From Anaerolineae bacterium (lineage in GTDB: Bacteria; Chloroflexota; Anaerolineae; B4-G1; SLSP01): a DNA stretch of 7,936 nucleotides. Position 1 is the stretch's first letter; each line of letters opens with the position of its first letter. Of the stretch, positions 1-7,936 are shown one piece after another. Position numbers and translations under genes: made by a program. The stretch is from positions 1 to 7,936 of the forward strand of contig JAFGNI010000109.1 in the NCBI GenBank assembly GCA_016927095.1, in the 5' to 3' direction. The notes beneath the pieces were generated by a model, which made no database searches, was not told the origin of the DNA, and worked only from the letters and a program-made list of their open reading frames with translations.

Positions 1-584
1 AGCAGATGCTGGGGCAGCATCAATGGATCGCCGCCCGACAGTAGGACATCACGGATCTGCGGCGTAGCAGCGATGTACGCAAGTTGGCGCTCATAGGCCG
101 CTGTGTTGAAGGCCTGATGTTGATCTCCGACGAGACGGCTTCGCGTACAGAATCGGCAGTAGCTGGCACACTGCGTCGTAACCAGCATCAACACGCGGTC
201 TGGGTAGCGATGCACCAAGCCGGGCACGGGCGAATGGGCTTCTTCGCCGAGGGAATCCACCATTTCGGAGTCGAAGGGGACCAGTTCTAGCGCTGTGGGT
301 ACGACTTGCCGCCGGATGGGGCAGTTGGGATCGTGCGGATCCATCAGACTCGCGAAGTAGGGGGTCACCTCTACGTGGAACCGGCCCGGCGCTGACAGAC
401 CGACAATCTCATCAGGCGTCAGCTCCAACACCTGGACGAAGTCCTCAACGGTTCGCAGACGGTGCGTCATCTGCCATCGCCAGTCTTGCCAGTCTTCTAC
501 AGAGACGTGCTGCCAAGGATCAAAGGATTGTTTGCCCTTCCCAGGGGGCTCCTCAAAACCGCTCATTGACGTCATCTCAGGCAT
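1..584 (-). CDS. kamA: KamA-family radical SAM aminomutase (N-terminal part, runs off left edge)
   Basis: This is the first 194 residues of a radical SAM, PLP-dependent amino-acid 2,3-aminomutase of the lysine 2,3-aminomutase family, which moves an amino group from the alpha to the beta carbon. The 4Fe-4S cluster motif CASYCRFC is visible (Cys139, Cys143, Cys146), followed by the family's SGGDPL segment (about 183-188). The start of the protein (FDPWQHVSVEDWQDWRWQM) is also typical of the family. The PLP lysine and the substrate-selecting residues lie beyond the edge, so lysine cannot be told from glutamate as substrate. I prefer the ATG at 584: the GGAGG core at 594-598 lies 9 nt upstream of it. 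The ATG at 593 directly abuts that core, which is too close. The gene is incomplete at position 1. It lies 98 nt downstream of the receiver-like gene on the same strand, so it could be co-transcribed or have its own promoter. Family is sure; exact enzyme is not. Confidence 0.9.
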   Translation of the reverse strand, partial: MPEMTSMSGFEEPPGKGKQSFDPWQHVSVEDWQDWRWQMTHRLRTVEDFVQVLELTPDEIVGLSAPGRFHVEVTPYFASLMDPHDPNCPIRRQVVPTALELVPFDSEMVDSLGEEAHSPVPGLVHRYPDRVLMLVTTQCASYCRFCTRSRLVGDQHQAFNTAAYERQLAYIAATPQIRDVLLSGGDPLMLPQHL

Positions 585-593
585 CTGTGTCAT

Positions 594-691: not shown

Positions 692-1102
692 TCATAGGCT
701 GACAGGCGATTTCCCGGACACACCGACGTGTGTCTCTGATCCCAGCAGCTGCTCCAACACACGCGATAGCTTGGCCGCCGGATATCCCTTTAGCAGGACC
801 TGATTGGCACCGGCATCCTCAGCCTGCTGAATAGATCGGATCGTGTCAGTCATCACAACACACCACGTCTGGGGCCAGCGTCGTTTCACCTGACGTAGCA
901 GCGCCCAGGCTTCGCCACCAGGGAGATCTGCATCCACCAGGATCAGCGTCGGCTGGTGCAGCGTCACTGTCCGCAGGGCGGATGCCAAGCTGTCCGCTTG
1001 GTGAACGGCACTAAGCAGAGGCATACTTCCCAGCAATGCTGCCAAGCCATCCCTCAGCGGACTGGGACGCGCAACCACCAACGCTGAACGGAGACTGGCC
1101 AT
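692..1102 (-). CDS. Stand-alone receiver-domain protein, acidic pair missing
   Basis: This 136-residue protein is a single CheY-like receiver fold of the NarL type, with no output domain. The phosphoacceptor position is kept (Asp57 in VDADLP), as are the switch Thr85 (VVMTD) and Lys105 (LLKG). The two acidic residues that normally end beta strand 1 and bind Mg2+ are replaced by Ala11-Arg12 (LVVARPSPLRDGL, where relatives have a DDH-like triplet). It is therefore probably poorly phosphorylated or phosphorylation-independent, an inference from family knowledge. I chose the ATG at 1102 because GGGGAG (1110-1115) lies 7 nt upstream and homology begins right after it. The same frame is open back to 1402, but those extra 100 residues look like no domain. 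The gene points the same way as the aminomutase gene that follows it. The two-component operon at 1912-3817 is nearby on the same strand but separated by a plus-strand gene and a terminator. It might act by protein-protein contact, for instance on a kinase. Confidence 0.8.
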   Translation of the reverse strand: MASLRSALVVARPSPLRDGLAALLGSMPLLSAVHQADSLASALRTVTLHQPTLILVDADLPGGEAWALLRQVKRRWPQTWCVVMTDTIRSIQQAEDAGANQVLLKGYPAAKLSRVLEQLLGSETHVGVSGKSPVSL

Positions 1103-1541: not shown

Positions 1542-1775
1542 ATGGCACTGACAGCAACATGCCCGGCATGCGATGAGACGATTATCCTCAACGCGATGCC
1601 GAAACTCGACCAGAAAATCCGCTGCCCGCACTGCCGGACGGACCTCATCGTCGTGGATCTCGATCCTGTCGAGCTGGACTGGGACGACTTCGAGGATGAT
1701 GATGACTGGGACGATGAGGACGATGAGGACGATGACGACTGGGATGACGATGACGACGACGGAGGAGAGTGGTAG
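1542..1775 (+). CDS. LysW-like zinc-ribbon protein with Asp/Trp-rich acidic tail
   Basis: The 77-residue product has two parts. Residues 7-45 form a compact zinc ribbon with CPAC (Cys7, Cys10) and CPHC (Cys28, Cys31), followed by DLIVVDLDPVEL. That ending closely resembles LysW, the amino-group carrier of lysine/arginine biosynthesis. LysW carries its substrate on the terminal Glu of a short EDWGE tail. Here the tail (46-77) is much longer: 25 of 32 residues are Asp or Glu, with Trp at 47, 56, 67 and 77. The octapeptide EDDDDWDD occurs twice (51-58, 62-69), and the protein ends GGEW, so the attachment glutamate is not at the C-terminus. Whether it still carries amino acids is therefore doubtful. 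No LysX-like ligase is in the window. The start is supported by GGAGG at 1528-1532, 9 nt upstream. A strong hairpin follows the stop. It may instead be a metal- or protein-binding acidic protein. Confidence 0.8.
   Translation: MALTATCPACDETIILNAMPKLDQKIRCPHCRTDLIVVDLDPVELDWDDFEDDDDWDDEDDEDDDDWDDDDDDGGEW
1692..1763 (+). repeat. Short tandem repeats encoding the acidic tail
   Basis: GACGATGAG-type 9-bp units stand in tandem at 1710-1718, 1719-1727 and 1728-1736, the last with one change. The coding units for EDDDDWDD lie at 1692-1715 and 1725-1748. The tract looks grown by slippage or small duplications and could vary in length between strains. Confidence 0.6.
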
Positions 1776-1911: not shown

Positions 1912-2583
1912 TTACTGGTCTTCGGTGCCCGCCTCGTCCAAGCGCGCCAGACCCTCTCGCAGAGCATAGAGAGCGGCCTGCGTGCGGTTTGCCACGTGCA
2001 GCTTCCGAAGTATGTTGCTGACGTGCGTGCGCGCCGTCCTCTCGGTGACGAAGAGCTGCTTGGCGATGTCTTCGTTGCTCAGACCTCGAGCCACGAGCTT
2101 GAGCACATCCATCTCCCGGTCCGTCAGTGGCTCCGTTGTTGGGGGAAGCTTCGGTGGACCGCGCAGTTCCTCGATGAGCTTGCGAGCCACAATGGGATGC
2201 ATCGTCGGCGTGCCGGCATGCACGTCACGGATGGCCTGCAGCAGCGCCTGGGGTGAGGTATCCTTGAGGAGATAGCCCATCGCACCGGCCTTGATCGCCG
2301 GGAAGATCTGCTCGTCCTCAGCAAAGCTGGTCAGAACCAGGATGCGGGCACCTGCATGGCGTGTGCGAATCTCATTGATAGCCGCAATGCCGTCCACCCG
2401 AGGCATCACGAGATCCATCAGGATGACATCCGGATCGAGCCTATCAACGAGGGCGATGGCCTCGGCACCATCGCGCGCCTCACCCACCAAAGTCATGCCG
2501 GGTTCTGTCTCCAGCAACCAACGCAGTCCCTCGCGAACAATGGCGTGGTCGTCCGCGATCATCACACGAATAGTATCGCCCAC
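1912..2583 (-). CDS. NarL/LiaR-type two-component response regulator
   Basis: The 223-residue regulator has a complete receiver (about 5-122) and a LuxR-type helix-turn-helix (about 150-212). Receiver residues are all present: Asp11-Asp12, phosphoacceptor Asp57 (LMDLVMP), Thr85 and Lys107. The output domain shows the classic LTDREMDVLKLVARGLSNEDIA segment broken here as LTDREMDVLK (153-162) and GLSNEDIA (167-174), then the recognition helix near TERTARTHVSNILRKL (180-195). It should be phosphorylated by the kinase encoded just upstream, dimerise and bind promoters. The start codon is GTG at 2583. GAGGAG lies 10 nt upstream within the end of the kinase gene, and the 4-nt gap suggests translational coupling. 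Overall it resembles LiaR/DegU-like regulators, but the stimulus cannot be read from sequence. It is transcribed towards the terminator at 1797-1848. Confidence 0.95.
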   Translation of the reverse strand: MGDTIRVMIADDHAIVREGLRWLLETEPGMTLVGEARDGAEAIALVDRLDPDVILMDLVMPRVDGIAAINEIRTRHAGARILVLTSFAEDEQIFPAIKAGAMGYLLKDTSPQALLQAIRDVHAGTPTMHPIVARKLIEELRGPPKLPPTTEPLTDREMDVLKLVARGLSNEDIAKQLFVTERTARTHVSNILRKLHVANRTQAALYALREGLARLDEAGTEDQ

Positions 2584-4060: not shown

Positions 4061-5716
4061 ATGAAGCGAGCTACGTTGGCACAAGGGTTGTGGGTAGGTG
4101 GTCTCACGGGGTTGGTGGTCCTAGCAACTCTCTACTCCGCCAATCAGGCCTTCGGGGCGCCTTTTGTCCCCTACGATGTCTGGAACTGGCAAGCCCGCGT
4201 CACTCCCGGAAACGCGCTTTCCTTGACGCTATCTTGGCCGGGCACCGTTCTGGCTAGGGTCTTCAACGCGCGCGAATCCGCGTGGGGGAAAACGTCGGAG
4301 CAGATCGGTTCCCTGCTGCTCTCCCTTGCCGTCTTGGCGGGGATTGGACTACTCGCTGCATGGCTCAAGGGACACGCCGAGCGCCGCCGTGTAAGAGCTG
4401 GACTGTGGGGTAGTGCCGTCGTCCTGATCTTGATCTCAGCAGTAGAGCTCGCAGTCGGCCTGGAAAGGCCCGTCCTCTCCTTGACCTGGTTAGCGATCGT
4501 CCTGCTGGGATGGGGCATCTTGCTCGACAGCATTCTGGACGGTAGGATCTTCTCAGCAATCTCAGAAAGCACCGACGAAGCGCGACGCCAGGGCCTCATC
4601 AAGCTAGCGAGCAGCGCGCTCGGCGCAACACTAGCGGCATGGGGTGTGGGGCGGTTGATAGCAAGTGGTGACGAGGGCACCGGGGCAGACCGGCCCTTGA
4701 CCGGGATCACCCCTGTGGCGCCGGATGATGAACCACCGGTGGTCGTAACAGCGCCAAGGGTCACACCAGCGGGATCCGAAGGAATAACCTCCGGAGATAT
4801 CGCGGAAATCCCCATCGGCGACGACGGCAGAGTAGTTCCCGTGCCCGGCACCCGCGAAGAGATCACGCCTCAGGGCGAGTTCTATCGGGTAGATATCAGC
4901 GCAACGCCCCTTAGCCTCGATGGTGAGAGCTGGCGCCTTGCGATGGCAGGGCTTTTCGAGCAGACGCCCCAGCTGACACTTGGCGACCTTCGAGCCTATC
5001 CAGCACGCACTCAAGCGATCACGTTGAGTTGCATCTCCAACCCGGTCGGCGGCACCGCGATCAGCTCAGCCTATTGGACCGGTCTGCGCCTCAACGATCT
5101 GCTCGAGGATTTGGGGCTGCTGCCAAAGGCGCAGTATCTGTACATCCAGTCGGCAGACGGCTTCTACGAGACCGTTCCAATGGAAGACATGATGAACCCC
5201 AGAACGCTGCTCGTCTACGGCATGAATGACCGCACGCTTCCCGACAGACACGGCTTCCCATTGCGCATCTACATCCCCAACCGCTATGGGATGAAGCAAC
5301 CGAAGTGGATTGAACGGATCGAGGCCACGGAGACCGACAGAGGTGGCTATTGGACGGATCGTGGCTGGAGCAAGCAAGCCATCGTCAACACCACGTCCGT
5401 CATCGACGTGGTAGCTGTTGATACCGAGGAGAACGGCTACATTCCGGTGGGCGGGGTCGCTTGGGCCGGTGCCCGCGGCATCCAGAAGGTTGAGGTCCAG
5501 ATCGATGAGGGCGAGTGGCATCAGGCAGCCCTCCGAACACCGGCGCCCAGCCCGCTTGCATGGGTTCAATGGCGCTATCATTGGATGGCATCACCAGGGA
5601 ATCACACGCTCAGCGTGCGCGCCACCGATGGGACGGGTGAGCTGCAGACGCCGGAGGCACGAGACACCCTCCCCAACGGGGCGACCGGCTACCACAGCGT
5701 CGATGTCGAAGTCTAG
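4061..5716 (+). CDS. Membrane-anchored sulfite-oxidase-type molybdopterin oxidoreductase
   Basis: The 551-residue protein joins a membrane part to a molybdenum enzyme. Five hydrophobic helices are seen near 10-32, 80-102, 113-133, 139-158 and 181-201. Positive charges at 2-3, 104-112 and 175-176 put the N-terminus inside and the rest outside. A Pro-rich linker (about 211-270) leads to an oxidoreductase molybdopterin-binding domain (about 272-440). Cys324 in LSCISN is the expected Mo ligand, and NRYGMKQPKWIERIE (407-421) matches the family's cofactor-binding end segment. A C-terminal Ig-like Mo-co dimerisation domain (about 445-551) follows. Such enzymes oxidise sulfite or reduce S- or N-oxides; the substrate here is unknown. 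The first 205 residues contain only one histidine (His105), so the membrane part cannot hold a bis-His heme like MsrQ and is probably an anchor. AGGAG at 4048-4052 lies 8 nt before the ATG. The divergent kinase operon may regulate it. Confidence 0.9.
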   Translation: MKRATLAQGLWVGGLTGLVVLATLYSANQAFGAPFVPYDVWNWQARVTPGNALSLTLSWPGTVLARVFNARESAWGKTSEQIGSLLLSLAVLAGIGLLAAWLKGHAERRRVRAGLWGSAVVLILISAVELAVGLERPVLSLTWLAIVLLGWGILLDSILDGRIFSAISESTDEARRQGLIKLASSALGATLAAWGVGRLIASGDEGTGADRPLTGITPVAPDDEPPVVVTAPRVTPAGSEGITSGDIAEIPIGDDGRVVPVPGTREEITPQGEFYRVDISATPLSLDGESWRLAMAGLFEQTPQLTLGDLRAYPARTQAITLSCISNPVGGTAISSAYWTGLRLNDLLEDLGLLPKAQYLYIQSADGFYETVPMEDMMNPRTLLVYGMNDRTLPDRHGFPLRIYIPNRYGMKQPKWIERIEATETDRGGYWTDRGWSKQAIVNTTSVIDVVAVDTEENGYIPVGGVAWAGARGIQKVEVQIDEGEWHQAALRTPAPSPLAWVQWRYHWMASPGNHTLSVRATDGTGELQTPEARDTLPNGATGYHSVDVEV

Positions 5717-5742: not shown

Positions 5743-6714
5743 CTAGTAGCCGGCTCTCATATCCACCACGTTTCGGAGGGGCATCTTTGTGACATAGCGC
5801 CGCAAGTTATCCAGGAAGATGGCCAGGGCCCGCTCATCGTAGTATGGGTTGTGTCCAGCATAGTGGGCGGTGACAATCACGTTGGGCATGTCCCACCACG
5901 GCGAATCCTCGGGCAGGGGCTCGGTCTCGAAGACATCCAGCCCGGCGCCTCCGATCCATCCCTCTTGGAGGGCGCGCAGAAGCGCATTCTCTTGGATCGT
6001 CCCACCGCGGCCGATATTCACGATGATCGCTGATGGCTTCATCGCTCTGAGTTCGGTCTCACCAATCATCCCACGCGTCCTCTCCGTCAATGGCACGGTG
6101 AGGACGAGAAAATCCGCCTCCGGCAGCACGTCAAGCAGTTGATCAGGTCCGACCATCCGCGCGACGCCCTGAACGGCATCCGCCGGATCGCGGCGCACAC
6201 CGATGACGCGGATGCCCAACGCTGCAGCCACCTTGGCTGTCTGGGCCCCAATCGCCCCCACCCCGACCAGCACCATCGTCGTGCCCGGTAGCTCGAAGAC
6301 ATTTTGGCCGCAGGGATCGGGGGGCTGGACCCACCGGTGTGCCACTTGATCCCGCACGGCGCAGTGTAGCCCACGCGCGAAGGCCAGCAACAGCGCGAAG
6401 ATATGCTCAGTGATCGGCACAGCATGGATACCCGACCCGCTCGTCAGGATGAAGTCCTTCTCAACGATCTCGGGGCGCGTAACGAAGCTGTCCACACCGG
6501 CTGCCCAGTGCTGCACCCATTGCACCCTCGGCATAGCCAGCACCACATCGGGGTCTAGCCAGCCGGCTGCGACCTCGATCTCATCGAGGCTATCTTGAAT
6601 CGCTGCTTCTTCCCGAGAGACCACGACCGTCATGTCTGGCACCACATCCTGCACTTGAGCAAGCTGCTCTGGTGTCACATCGTCTACATCTGTGCAAAGC
6701 CATAGAAACGGCAT
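5743..6714 (-). CDS. D-isomer-specific 2-hydroxyacid dehydrogenase
   Basis: The 323-residue enzyme is a full-length member of the D-2-hydroxyacid dehydrogenase family, which reduces 2-oxoacids to D-2-hydroxyacids (or the reverse) with NAD(P)H. The Rossmann motif VGVGAIG spans about 150-156. The catalytic set is complete: Arg236 in NIGRGG, Glu263 in DVFETEP and His284 in TAHYAG. The Rossmann strand ends in a run with Arg residues (VIGVRRDP), which fits NADPH use, as in glyoxylate/hydroxypyruvate reductases; this is inference. I chose the ATG at 6714: AAGGA lies 6 nt upstream and homology starts there. The frame is open back to 6807, but that extension would overlap the upstream gene and has no family character. 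It follows the glycosidase-like gene by 52 nt on the same strand with no terminator between, so the two are probably one operon. It faces the molybdoenzyme gene tail to tail across 26 nt. Confidence 0.92.
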   Translation of the reverse strand: MPFLWLCTDVDDVTPEQLAQVQDVVPDMTVVVSREEAAIQDSLDEIEVAAGWLDPDVVLAMPRVQWVQHWAAGVDSFVTRPEIVEKDFILTSGSGIHAVPITEHIFALLLAFARGLHCAVRDQVAHRWVQPPDPCGQNVFELPGTTMVLVGVGAIGAQTAKVAAALGIRVIGVRRDPADAVQGVARMVGPDQLLDVLPEADFLVLTVPLTERTRGMIGETELRAMKPSAIIVNIGRGGTIQENALLRALQEGWIGGAGLDVFETEPLPEDSPWWDMPNVIVTAHYAGHNPYYDERALAIFLDNLRRYVTKMPLRNVVDMRAGY

Positions 6715-6766: not shown

Positions 6767-7936
6767 TCAGTCCAACGCCTGGGAAAGAATGTAGCGTGCC
6801 TCGTCACCCGCCAACTCGGATACGGGATCCCGCGTCTGGAAGATGAGTGTGGGAATCGCTCCTTGCCGCAGGGTCGCGTCGATCATCGCTCTGCGGTTCT
6901 CGCCCTTGCCGTAGTTGTAGCCGATGCCGCGCGATAGGCCGCCAAAGAGCACCTCGTTAACGGGCAACGTCCCCTCAAGCACCCAACTGACATCCTGTCC
7001 ATTAATGGCAGCAGCGTGCGCGAAATTGTAGAGATGGAACTGGACCATTGACAGGTACTGCGTGGAGATCTCGTTGCGCCCCTCGCCGGAGACACAGAAG
7101 CCCGGCGCCAATTCTGCCAACTCGCGGATCAGCTTCAGCGAACCCTCCGCGTAGGTCAGCCCTTCCAGAATCGCGTTGTCGCTGTTGTGAATCAGCTGCG
7201 AGACGTCCACGAACATGCTGTCGAGACCCAACTCCTTGATCAACTGGGCGACCTGGCGCGTCAGCTGCCTGCGCCACGGCGACCAGGCAAGGTGGACGTT
7301 TACAAGGATGTTCCAGTCCTTGTTGGCGGGCATCTGTGAATAGCTCTGCGGTGGCCCGAAGCTTCCCCATCCATCCACGGGTAACCAGCTCCACCCGCCC
7401 CAGCGCATATCAACGGGCGAGCGGGTACAGAAGTCTCGTGCCTGGAAGAAGAAAGGATGATCCGGATTCATCTGGCAGGCATTGGCATGCGGCGCCACGT
7501 GGAATCCCATCGAACGCGCTTTCTGGATGAAGGATCGCCCCTCCGCACTGGGCACAAAGGAAGGGTAGTCCTGATCGTACTTGTAGGGACGCCAGCGAGG
7601 CAGGTGCAGGAACACCTTATCGGGAGCGACGCGCTCTGACAGAGCATCCAGCAGGCCGAGGTCGGTTGGGCACCAGGAAACAGCCAGCCGGATATCATCC
7701 AGCCAATCGGGACGCAGCTGCGCTGCGTCCTCGAGCCGGTAGGTTGCCCAGTACCAAGCGCGATACCGCTTGACGGGTCCGGTCCAGTCCCCTTGGTGCG
7801 CCGAGATGCGCCACGCGAGATTACCCACGCAGCGGTTCTGCTCCAGCGGGCCGTACGGTTGCGTCACGAATGTCGCCGTCTGCGGGTCCTTGTCGTGGCC
7901 GATATGCACCTGTTTGAAGATGAAGTGCGCATCCCA
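6767..7936 (-). CDS. Putative TIM-barrel glycoside-hydrolase-like protein (DUF6259-like; runs off right edge)
   Basis: The last 389 residues of a larger protein are visible. The frame is open to the window edge, so the GTG at 7909 is not the start. It is rich in Trp, Tyr, Phe and His, as carbohydrate-active enzymes often are. Barrel-like strand endings can be seen: KVFLHLPRW (about 107-115), GFHVAPHANA (about 144-153), MFVDVSQ with Asp244, and FCVSGEGRNE with Glu285. Asp244 and Glu285 are candidate catalytic acids by analogy with other TIM-barrel glycosidases; this is inference. The general look matches proteins labelled DUF6259, but I cannot confirm the family without a profile search. The repeated aromatic-His stretches (for example HLAWSPWRRQ and HNSDNA) suggest a sugar-binding cleft. 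The product is followed after 52 nt by a D-2-hydroxyacid dehydrogenase gene, which fits sugar or sugar-acid catabolism. No signal peptide can be judged because the N-terminus is missing. Confidence 0.65.
   Translation of the reverse strand, partial: WDAHFIFKQVHIGHDKDPQTATFVTQPYGPLEQNRCVGNLAWRISAHQGDWTGPVKRYRAWYWATYRLEDAAQLRPDWLDDIRLAVSWCPTDLGLLDALSERVAPDKVFLHLPRWRPYKYDQDYPSFVPSAEGRSFIQKARSMGFHVAPHANACQMNPDHPFFFQARDFCTRSPVDMRWGGWSWLPVDGWGSFGPPQSYSQMPANKDWNILVNVHLAWSPWRRQLTRQVAQLIKELGLDSMFVDVSQLIHNSDNAILEGLTYAEGSLKLIRELAELAPGFCVSGEGRNEISTQYLSMVQFHLYNFAHAAAINGQDVSWVLEGTLPVNEVLFGGLSRGIGYNYGKGENRRAMIDATLRQGAIPTLIFQTRDPVSELAGDEARYILSQALD

Follow-up and report, generated by a model that had tools for sequence, protein, structure and literature searches.

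The gene at positions 1542 to 1775 of the window (the whole stretch of 7,936 nucleotides analysed here) encodes a paralogue of the amino-group carrier protein LysW, and not LysW itself. The protein has kept the LysW zinc-ribbon fold and lacks the terminal glutamate that serves as the acceptor. In a considerable share of its relatives' loci the gene stands beside a D-Ala-D-Ala-ligase-like ATP-grasp gene and a gene of the lysine 2,3-aminomutase family (KamA). It is this acceptor-less LysW-derived family with its ligase and KamA, rather than the spacing of the tryptophans in its tail, that makes the locus notable. LysW-fold proteins are known as covalent carriers. If the interpretation developed below is true, the occurrence of paralogues without an attachment point, partly beside an ATP-grasp ligase and KamA, would mean that the fold of a carrier can persist after carriage is lost, and would suggest that Chloroflexota possess a pathway of beta-amino-acid ligation that has not been described. 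The features of the window on which the analysis draws are as follows, with L numbers denoting loci and G numbers genomes of relatives.

3 to 593, minus strand: KamA (lysine 2,3-aminomutase family), truncated by the window edge to its first 197 residues and separated from the LysW-like gene by 949 bp
692 to 1102, minus strand: response regulator consisting of a receiver only, located between KamA and the LysW-like gene (Response_reg, 43 bits), syntenic with L001 and L003
1528 to 1532, plus strand: GGAGG, ribosome-binding-site-like, read from the sequence nine bases 5' of the ATG
1542 to 1775, plus strand: LysW-like paralogue gene, an open reading frame of 77 aa (pN/pS 0.07-0.15 against L001-L004)
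1554 to 1679, plus strand: LysW-fold zinc-ribbon domain, residues 5-46, with four Cys (Pfam PF21344, PDB profile match and structure model)
1677 to 1772, plus strand: Asp/Trp-rich C-terminal tail, residues 46-77, without terminal Glu (25 of 32 residues acidic; low pLDDT of 51-56 from residue 51)
1797 to 1848, no strand assigned: perfect 14-nt inverted repeat with a 24-nt loop, placed like a terminator between two convergent genes
1912 to 2583, minus strand: LuxR-type response regulator, convergent with the LysW-like gene and in synteny with L001 and L003
2588 to 3820, minus strand: sensor histidine kinase, syntenic in L001 and L003

In the first 46 codons, most differences between the window gene and four relatives (L001-L004) are synonymous, and the resulting pN/pS of 0.07-0.15 indicates that 1542-1775 is a real gene under purifying selection. 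The third-position GC content is 0.74 in the globular part and 0.68 in the tail, similar to that of the four neighbouring genes (0.68-0.72). The encoded protein, with a predicted charge of about -28 at pH 7 and a pI of 4.05, is exactly the 77-residue chain given by an earlier note on this DNA. The details listed in that note were likewise confirmed, namely tryptophans at positions 47, 56, 67 and 77, a motif EDDDDWDD that occurs twice, the acidic count of the tail, and a C-terminus that reads GGEW and bears no terminal glutamate. The two copies of EDDDDWDD start at residues 51 and 62. Promoter and terminator scans gave no call; the inverted repeat at 1797-1848 was not called by the terminator scan, which admits loops of 3-8 only. 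Among viral contigs, 98 pattern matches were obtained, none of which is a relative.

The LysW-like fold proposed in the earlier note is supported by profile searches as well as by structure prediction. Residues 5-46 pass the cut-off of the Pfam family Zn_ribbon_LysW (PF21344; 31.4 bits, cut-off 27), but the protein does not reach that of the LysW equivalog TIGR01206 (26 bits, cut-off 53.2). In 48 relatives E44, L45, D46 and W47 are each at least 90% conserved, and the top PDB hit of a profile of 48 relatives is LysW (E 3e-12). In the AlphaFold2 model of the 77-residue protein, the block-mean pLDDT is 82-90 at residues 1-50 and 51-56 beyond. The six best Foldseek matches of this model are all LysW chains (rmsd 0.7-1.9 Å), with E-values that are modest (0.003-0.2), the chain being so short.

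The genomes of most relatives encode a separate, canonical LysW. Matches to PF21344, 66 in total, occur in every one of the first relatives' 19 genomes, and the loci read include a LysW ending in EDWGE in 15 of these 19 genomes; no match with this ending was present among the loci read in G006, G011, G017 and G018. Six pairs, picked from 16 loci, were tested for LysX, and in all six the EDWGE-ending LysW is adjoined by a LysX that scores above its equivalog cut-off. Since LysW is thus separately encoded and accompanied by its own LysX, recruitment of the paralogue to another role, as the earlier note had suggested, is probable. Labels such as 'lysine biosynthesis protein LysW' on several relatives in the source records are probably wrong. 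Few forks are resolved in a tree of the 46-column domain, from which it is taken only that the canonical rows cluster (2 changes, 18.7 when shuffled). The window protein has neither the EDWGE ending nor the acceptor Glu, and among 56 paralogues the last residue is of 15 different kinds (W in 11, D in 10, R and L in 5 each, and others). A study of ArgW reports that the terminal Glu is needed, an E54A mutant being unable to make arginine, and that EDWGE is recognised through a GSWGR motif in the ligase (PMC10433800).

The globular domain of the paralogue has changed as well. Glu, which occupies alignment columns 8, 24 and 34 in all 21 canonical rows, is found there in 35%, 7% and 25%, respectively, of 57 paralogue rows. 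At column 24 the Glu found in 100% of canonical rows is replaced by Gln in 58% of the paralogue rows, and at column 25 an Ile that is equally invariant in canonical rows is replaced by Arg or Lys in 52%, while the Glu at column 36 is retained in 77%. The paralogue rows have furthermore gained a P-x-E-L-D-W motif (E 86%, L 82%, D 86%, W 79%), and the median net charge of the globular part has shifted from -10 (-14 to -6) in canonical proteins to -3 (-12 to 2). In carrier pathways, the enzymes contact the acidic carrier electrostatically (PMC9303977), and from the altered acidic positions we infer that the ancestral LysW docking surface has probably changed in the paralogue. In these counts, the 56 proteins correspond to 57 domain rows because L168 carries two LysW domains in one protein. 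L172, which ends in EDWGE, was counted as canonical in the column alignment and the domain tree, yet is still a row in the neighbourhood table; L178 is a repeat of L012 and was excluded from later counts, and the ORFs of L019, L159 and some others extend upstream of the domain. The L168 protein (6313-6702) is a fusion of two LysW-like domains of 129 residues in all, and in L048 (from G005) five LysW-like ORFs with diverged sequences follow one another on one strand (592-2008).

In the window, KamA and the regulator at 692-1102 lie upstream of the LysW-like gene and are divergent from it, and the gene order KamA, receiver, LysW-like protein, LuxR-type regulator and kinase is common to the window, L001 and L003. 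In L001-L004, KamA is followed by the D-Ala-D-Ala-ligase-like ATP-grasp gene; an HDAC-like gene comes after these two in L001 and L002, and such a gene is also present in L006. Of these genes the window contains the KamA fragment alone, and no LysX/RimK-type ligase is present among the annotated genes of its 7.9 kb. Judging from the relatives, a ligase gene would lie just beyond the window edge. On the other side of the two-component genes, the window holds a molybdopterin sulfite-oxidase-like protein with a hydrophobic N-terminal half (4061-5716, plus strand; Oxidored_molyb), which does not reach the cut-offs of the NCBIfam models for named sulfite dehydrogenases, and a protein with a DUF6259 match that is cut by the window edge (6767-7936, minus strand).

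Among the 20 first loci, including the window, KamA and an ATP-grasp gene each occur in 9, and an OmpR-type regulator occurs in 8. Loci L001-L019 and L159-L177 were chosen for their LysW-like gene, the latter because this gene lay off the ligase contigs. To avoid such selection, the ligase itself was searched in 150 genomes of the class of G001, 76 of which have a match at E 1e-60. Examination covered 61 of these 76 genomes, in sets of 54 and 4 and a further 3 that were already known through their LysW-like gene. The LysW-like gene adjoins the ligase or its KamA in 14 of the 54, in none of the 4 and in all 3 of those previously known; the clean figure, from loci chosen regardless of the LysW-like gene, is 14/58, with KamA present in ten of the 14. 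By chance about 0.6 would be expected in 54, a hand estimate that assumes 4-Mb genomes with 3.5 PF21344 genes each and regions of 12.6 kb. A tree was built of 74 ligases from all locus sources, without fragments shorter than 250 aa. Ligases with the LysW-like link group together in it (8 changes, shuffled mean 19), and the link recurs in two distant parts. KamA accompanies 17 of the 22 linked ligases and is not nearby for the other 5, which makes the ligase a steadier partner of the LysW-like gene than KamA. Of the 74 ligases, 33 have KamA but no LysW-like gene and 19 have neither. The link between LysW-like gene and ligase is old, but since many ligase loci do without the LysW-like gene it is optional, and the order of the genes differs among the linked loci.

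The optional nature of the link is also seen at loci reached by other routes. Six ligase loci from the genomes of the first set (L153-L158) contain no LysW-like gene (0/6), and at its places in 27 other genomes (22 rows of L159-L177, together with L005, L009-L013, L015 and L017-L019) the LysW-like gene mostly occurs without KamA or ligase. In L009, L010 and L013 it is followed by genes for a histidine kinase of ~1100 aa and a protein of ~1630 aa, the L009 copy of which has protein kinase, AAA and TPR domains. As a control, KamA loci outside the class sample were taken from 36 of 50 genomes of the phylum with a KamA match, the other 14 being omitted as already in the class sample. The LysW-like gene is found at none of these 36 loci and the ligase at 2. 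In 27 of the 36 genomes no LysW-like profile match was obtained at E 1e-6, and the matches in the other 9 are LysW ending in EDWGE; the control thus shows that the paralogue is absent from those genomes, and not that it avoids KamA or prefers a certain KamA type. The earlier note had proposed to look near homologues for ligases of the LysX/ArgX type. A ligase is indeed found there, but it is D-Ala-D-Ala-ligase-like and often adjoins KamA. No description of a linkage between LysW-like gene, ligase and KamA was found among the matches listed in the literature searched, which consisted mainly of titles and the openings of abstracts.

The KamA proteins of L006 and L014 pass the lysine 2,3-aminomutase cut-off, and that of L001 scores just below it (519 bits, cut-off 525.4). 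The L006 protein gives a 483-bit alignment with 2a5h, in which the Asp residues contacting the lysine side chain are conserved. Against the EpmB equivalog (cut-off 369.3), three relatives' KamA score 237, 251 and 269 bits, and the fragment in the window 104 bits. The ligase matches D-Ala-D-Ala ligases and scores below the cut-offs of the NCBIfam ligase models. Furthermore, a cluster of GNAT-family genes, one member of which is annotated, is present in 9 of 60 ligase regions.

The earlier note had drawn attention to a repeated Asp/Trp tail; as a defining feature of the protein, such a periodicity is not borne out by the relatives. W47 belongs to the conserved end of the globular domain and not to the tail repeat, and among 84 non-redundant relatives no Trp offset from W47 stands out against shuffled tails (best three-column window 24, null mean 22.7). 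Spacings of 9-11 between tryptophans occur 11 times in 55 tails (9.1 in shuffles) and 17 times in a wider set of 88 (11.5 in shuffles), the latter a weak excess that 25 of 400 shuffles also attain. A conserved code of periodic Trp residues was therefore rejected. The tails nevertheless have some non-random features: in the set of 55, Trp pairs at most 3 apart are rarer than in shuffles (9 vs 21.1; a count this low in 1/400 shuffles), spacings of 5-8 exceed the shuffled number (27 vs 18.1; a count this high in 5/400), and 22 tails end in an aromatic residue, where 8.5 would be expected. These 55 non-redundant relatives, whose domain ends in DW, have tails of 13-46 residues that are 50-84% acidic (median 0.74), and they were found using the tail in the query, which enriches for acidic tails. 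Among the 56 locus-derived paralogues the last 28 residues are at least half acidic in 35 and below 40% in 19. Because the offsets are unconserved and these 19 tails are weakly acidic, the situation that the earlier note had itself set against its proposal, low-complexity tails without conserved Trp spacing, is largely the one observed. A variable polyanion, rather than a code, is the better description of the tail. The ligase-linked L100, L101, L103 and L105 have tails that are merely 16-27% acidic; in L100 (223-471) the LysW-like protein carries an extra CxxC (VCQAC) in place of acidic residues. At the DNA level, GAY-rich tandem repeats underlie the tail repeat of the window gene, with rows within 1677-1761.

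A further recurrent neighbour is an OmpR-type regulator, encoded directly upstream on the same strand within 1 kb in 9/21, 8/14 and 3/22 LysW-like rows of the three sets. Of 25 aligned regulators, 24 have a residue at the position of the phospho-acceptor Asp, and in all 24 it is replaced by Ala, Ser, Val or Thr (e.g. L099-L107, L146). This adjacency and the missing phospho-Asp leave room for a regulatory role.

The best reading, although still short of probable, is that the LysW-fold protein serves a putative beta-lysine ligase module as an accessory that docks on the ligase, without terminal-glutamate carriage. The paralogue itself would be non-catalytic. KamA would convert lysine to beta-lysine, the families of the enzymes being what suggests this product, and the D-Ala-D-Ala-ligase-like ATP-grasp enzyme would join beta-lysine to a partner. 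The LysW-fold domain would dock on that ligase, as LysW does on LysX, and the terminal-glutamate amide of LysW would not be used, since that residue is absent. The tail would be a disordered polyanion whose exact sequence is of little weight and which may hold basic enzymes or the dicationic substrate. Against this speaks that the link is optional, that the window itself shows KamA and no ligase, and that many LysW-like genes adjoin a regulator instead of KamA or the ligase. The pairing with an ATP-grasp ligase, like that of LysW with LysX, and the HDAC-like gene of L001, L002 and L006 would also suit a protein that is still a covalent carrier, to which the ligase attaches lysine or beta-lysine via a free C-terminal or side-chain carboxylate and from which the HDAC-like hydrolase releases the product. 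However, the unconserved last residue of the 56 paralogues, the non-acidic tails of the four ligase-linked loci named above and the terminal Glu that ArgW requires (PMC10433800) make this unlikely. A second LysW-fold carrier system, in which the ligase would load lysine or KamA-made beta-lysine onto the tail carboxylates as on a ribosomally encoded scaffold recalling cyanophycin, with release by the HDAC-like hydrolase, is very improbable.

It is doubtful, too, that the acidic protein is a partner of the OmpR-type regulator with the unphosphorylatable receiver, binding this regulator and controlling DNA binding (for example as a DNA mimic), with the KamA module as one target. The closeness of the two genes and the uniform replacement of the phospho-Asp agree with such a partnership, but an OmpR-type regulator was not found adjoining the gene in the window or in L001-L004, 5 of the 14 ligase-linked rows of L099-L158 have none within 3 kb or only one at 1.8 kb, and adjacency could mean mere co-regulation. 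There is a small chance that the tail is a drifting low-complexity extension with no function of its own, lengthened by slippage of the GAY repeats, and that the globular domain alone matters. The tandem repeats, the shuffle-like Trp offsets and the range of tail lengths are in line with drift, whereas the high acidity of most tails, in a set found with the tail in the query, the depletion of close Trp pairs, the excess of spacings of 5-8 and the frequent aromatic end are not. Finally, the strong negative charge and low pI, and a calcium-type P-ATPase gene adjoining L012, would fit a buffer in which the polyanionic tail binds divalent cations or polyamines and the ribbon is a mere anchor. This is highly unlikely given the weakly acidic tails of ligase-linked relatives and neighbour clusters that show no repeated link to metal transporters.

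The protein and its loci can be compared with several known systems. The pearlin carrier peptides and LysW-like AmCPs of natural-product clusters resemble the present loci in that a ribosomal protein adjoins amino-acid ligating enzymes (PMC9303977, PMC8346489), but no adduct is known here and the annotated loci contain no pearlin enzymes. In the beta-lysylation of elongation factor P by EpmA and EpmB, a KamA-type enzyme likewise adjoins a ligase-type enzyme. EpmA is lysyl-tRNA-synthetase-like, whereas the ligase here is of the ATP-grasp type, the KamA proteins of the relatives remain below the EpmB cut-off and EF-P is not encoded at the annotated loci. The pathway for the osmolyte N-epsilon-acetyl-beta-lysine (AblA/AblB) shares the lysine 2,3-aminomutase and, in the ligase regions with the GNAT-family cluster, a GNAT gene assigned at family level; the present loci add one or two ATP-grasp ligases, plus in some a LysW-fold protein. 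Similar in fold are the LysW/ArgW carriers of Thermus and archaea, with which the paralogue shares the zinc ribbon with four Cys, an acidic C-terminal region and, in some relatives, an adjoining ATP-grasp ligase. It differs from them in lacking EDWGE and the terminal Glu, in its changed columns 8, 24 and 34 (column 36 mostly keeping Glu), in the gained P-x-E-L-D-W and in the D-Ala-D-Ala-ligase-like nature of its partner. More distant LysW-like families with acidic tails were also observed (P0083-P0120), some of which end in EDWEE and at least one record of which is named Acidobacteria.
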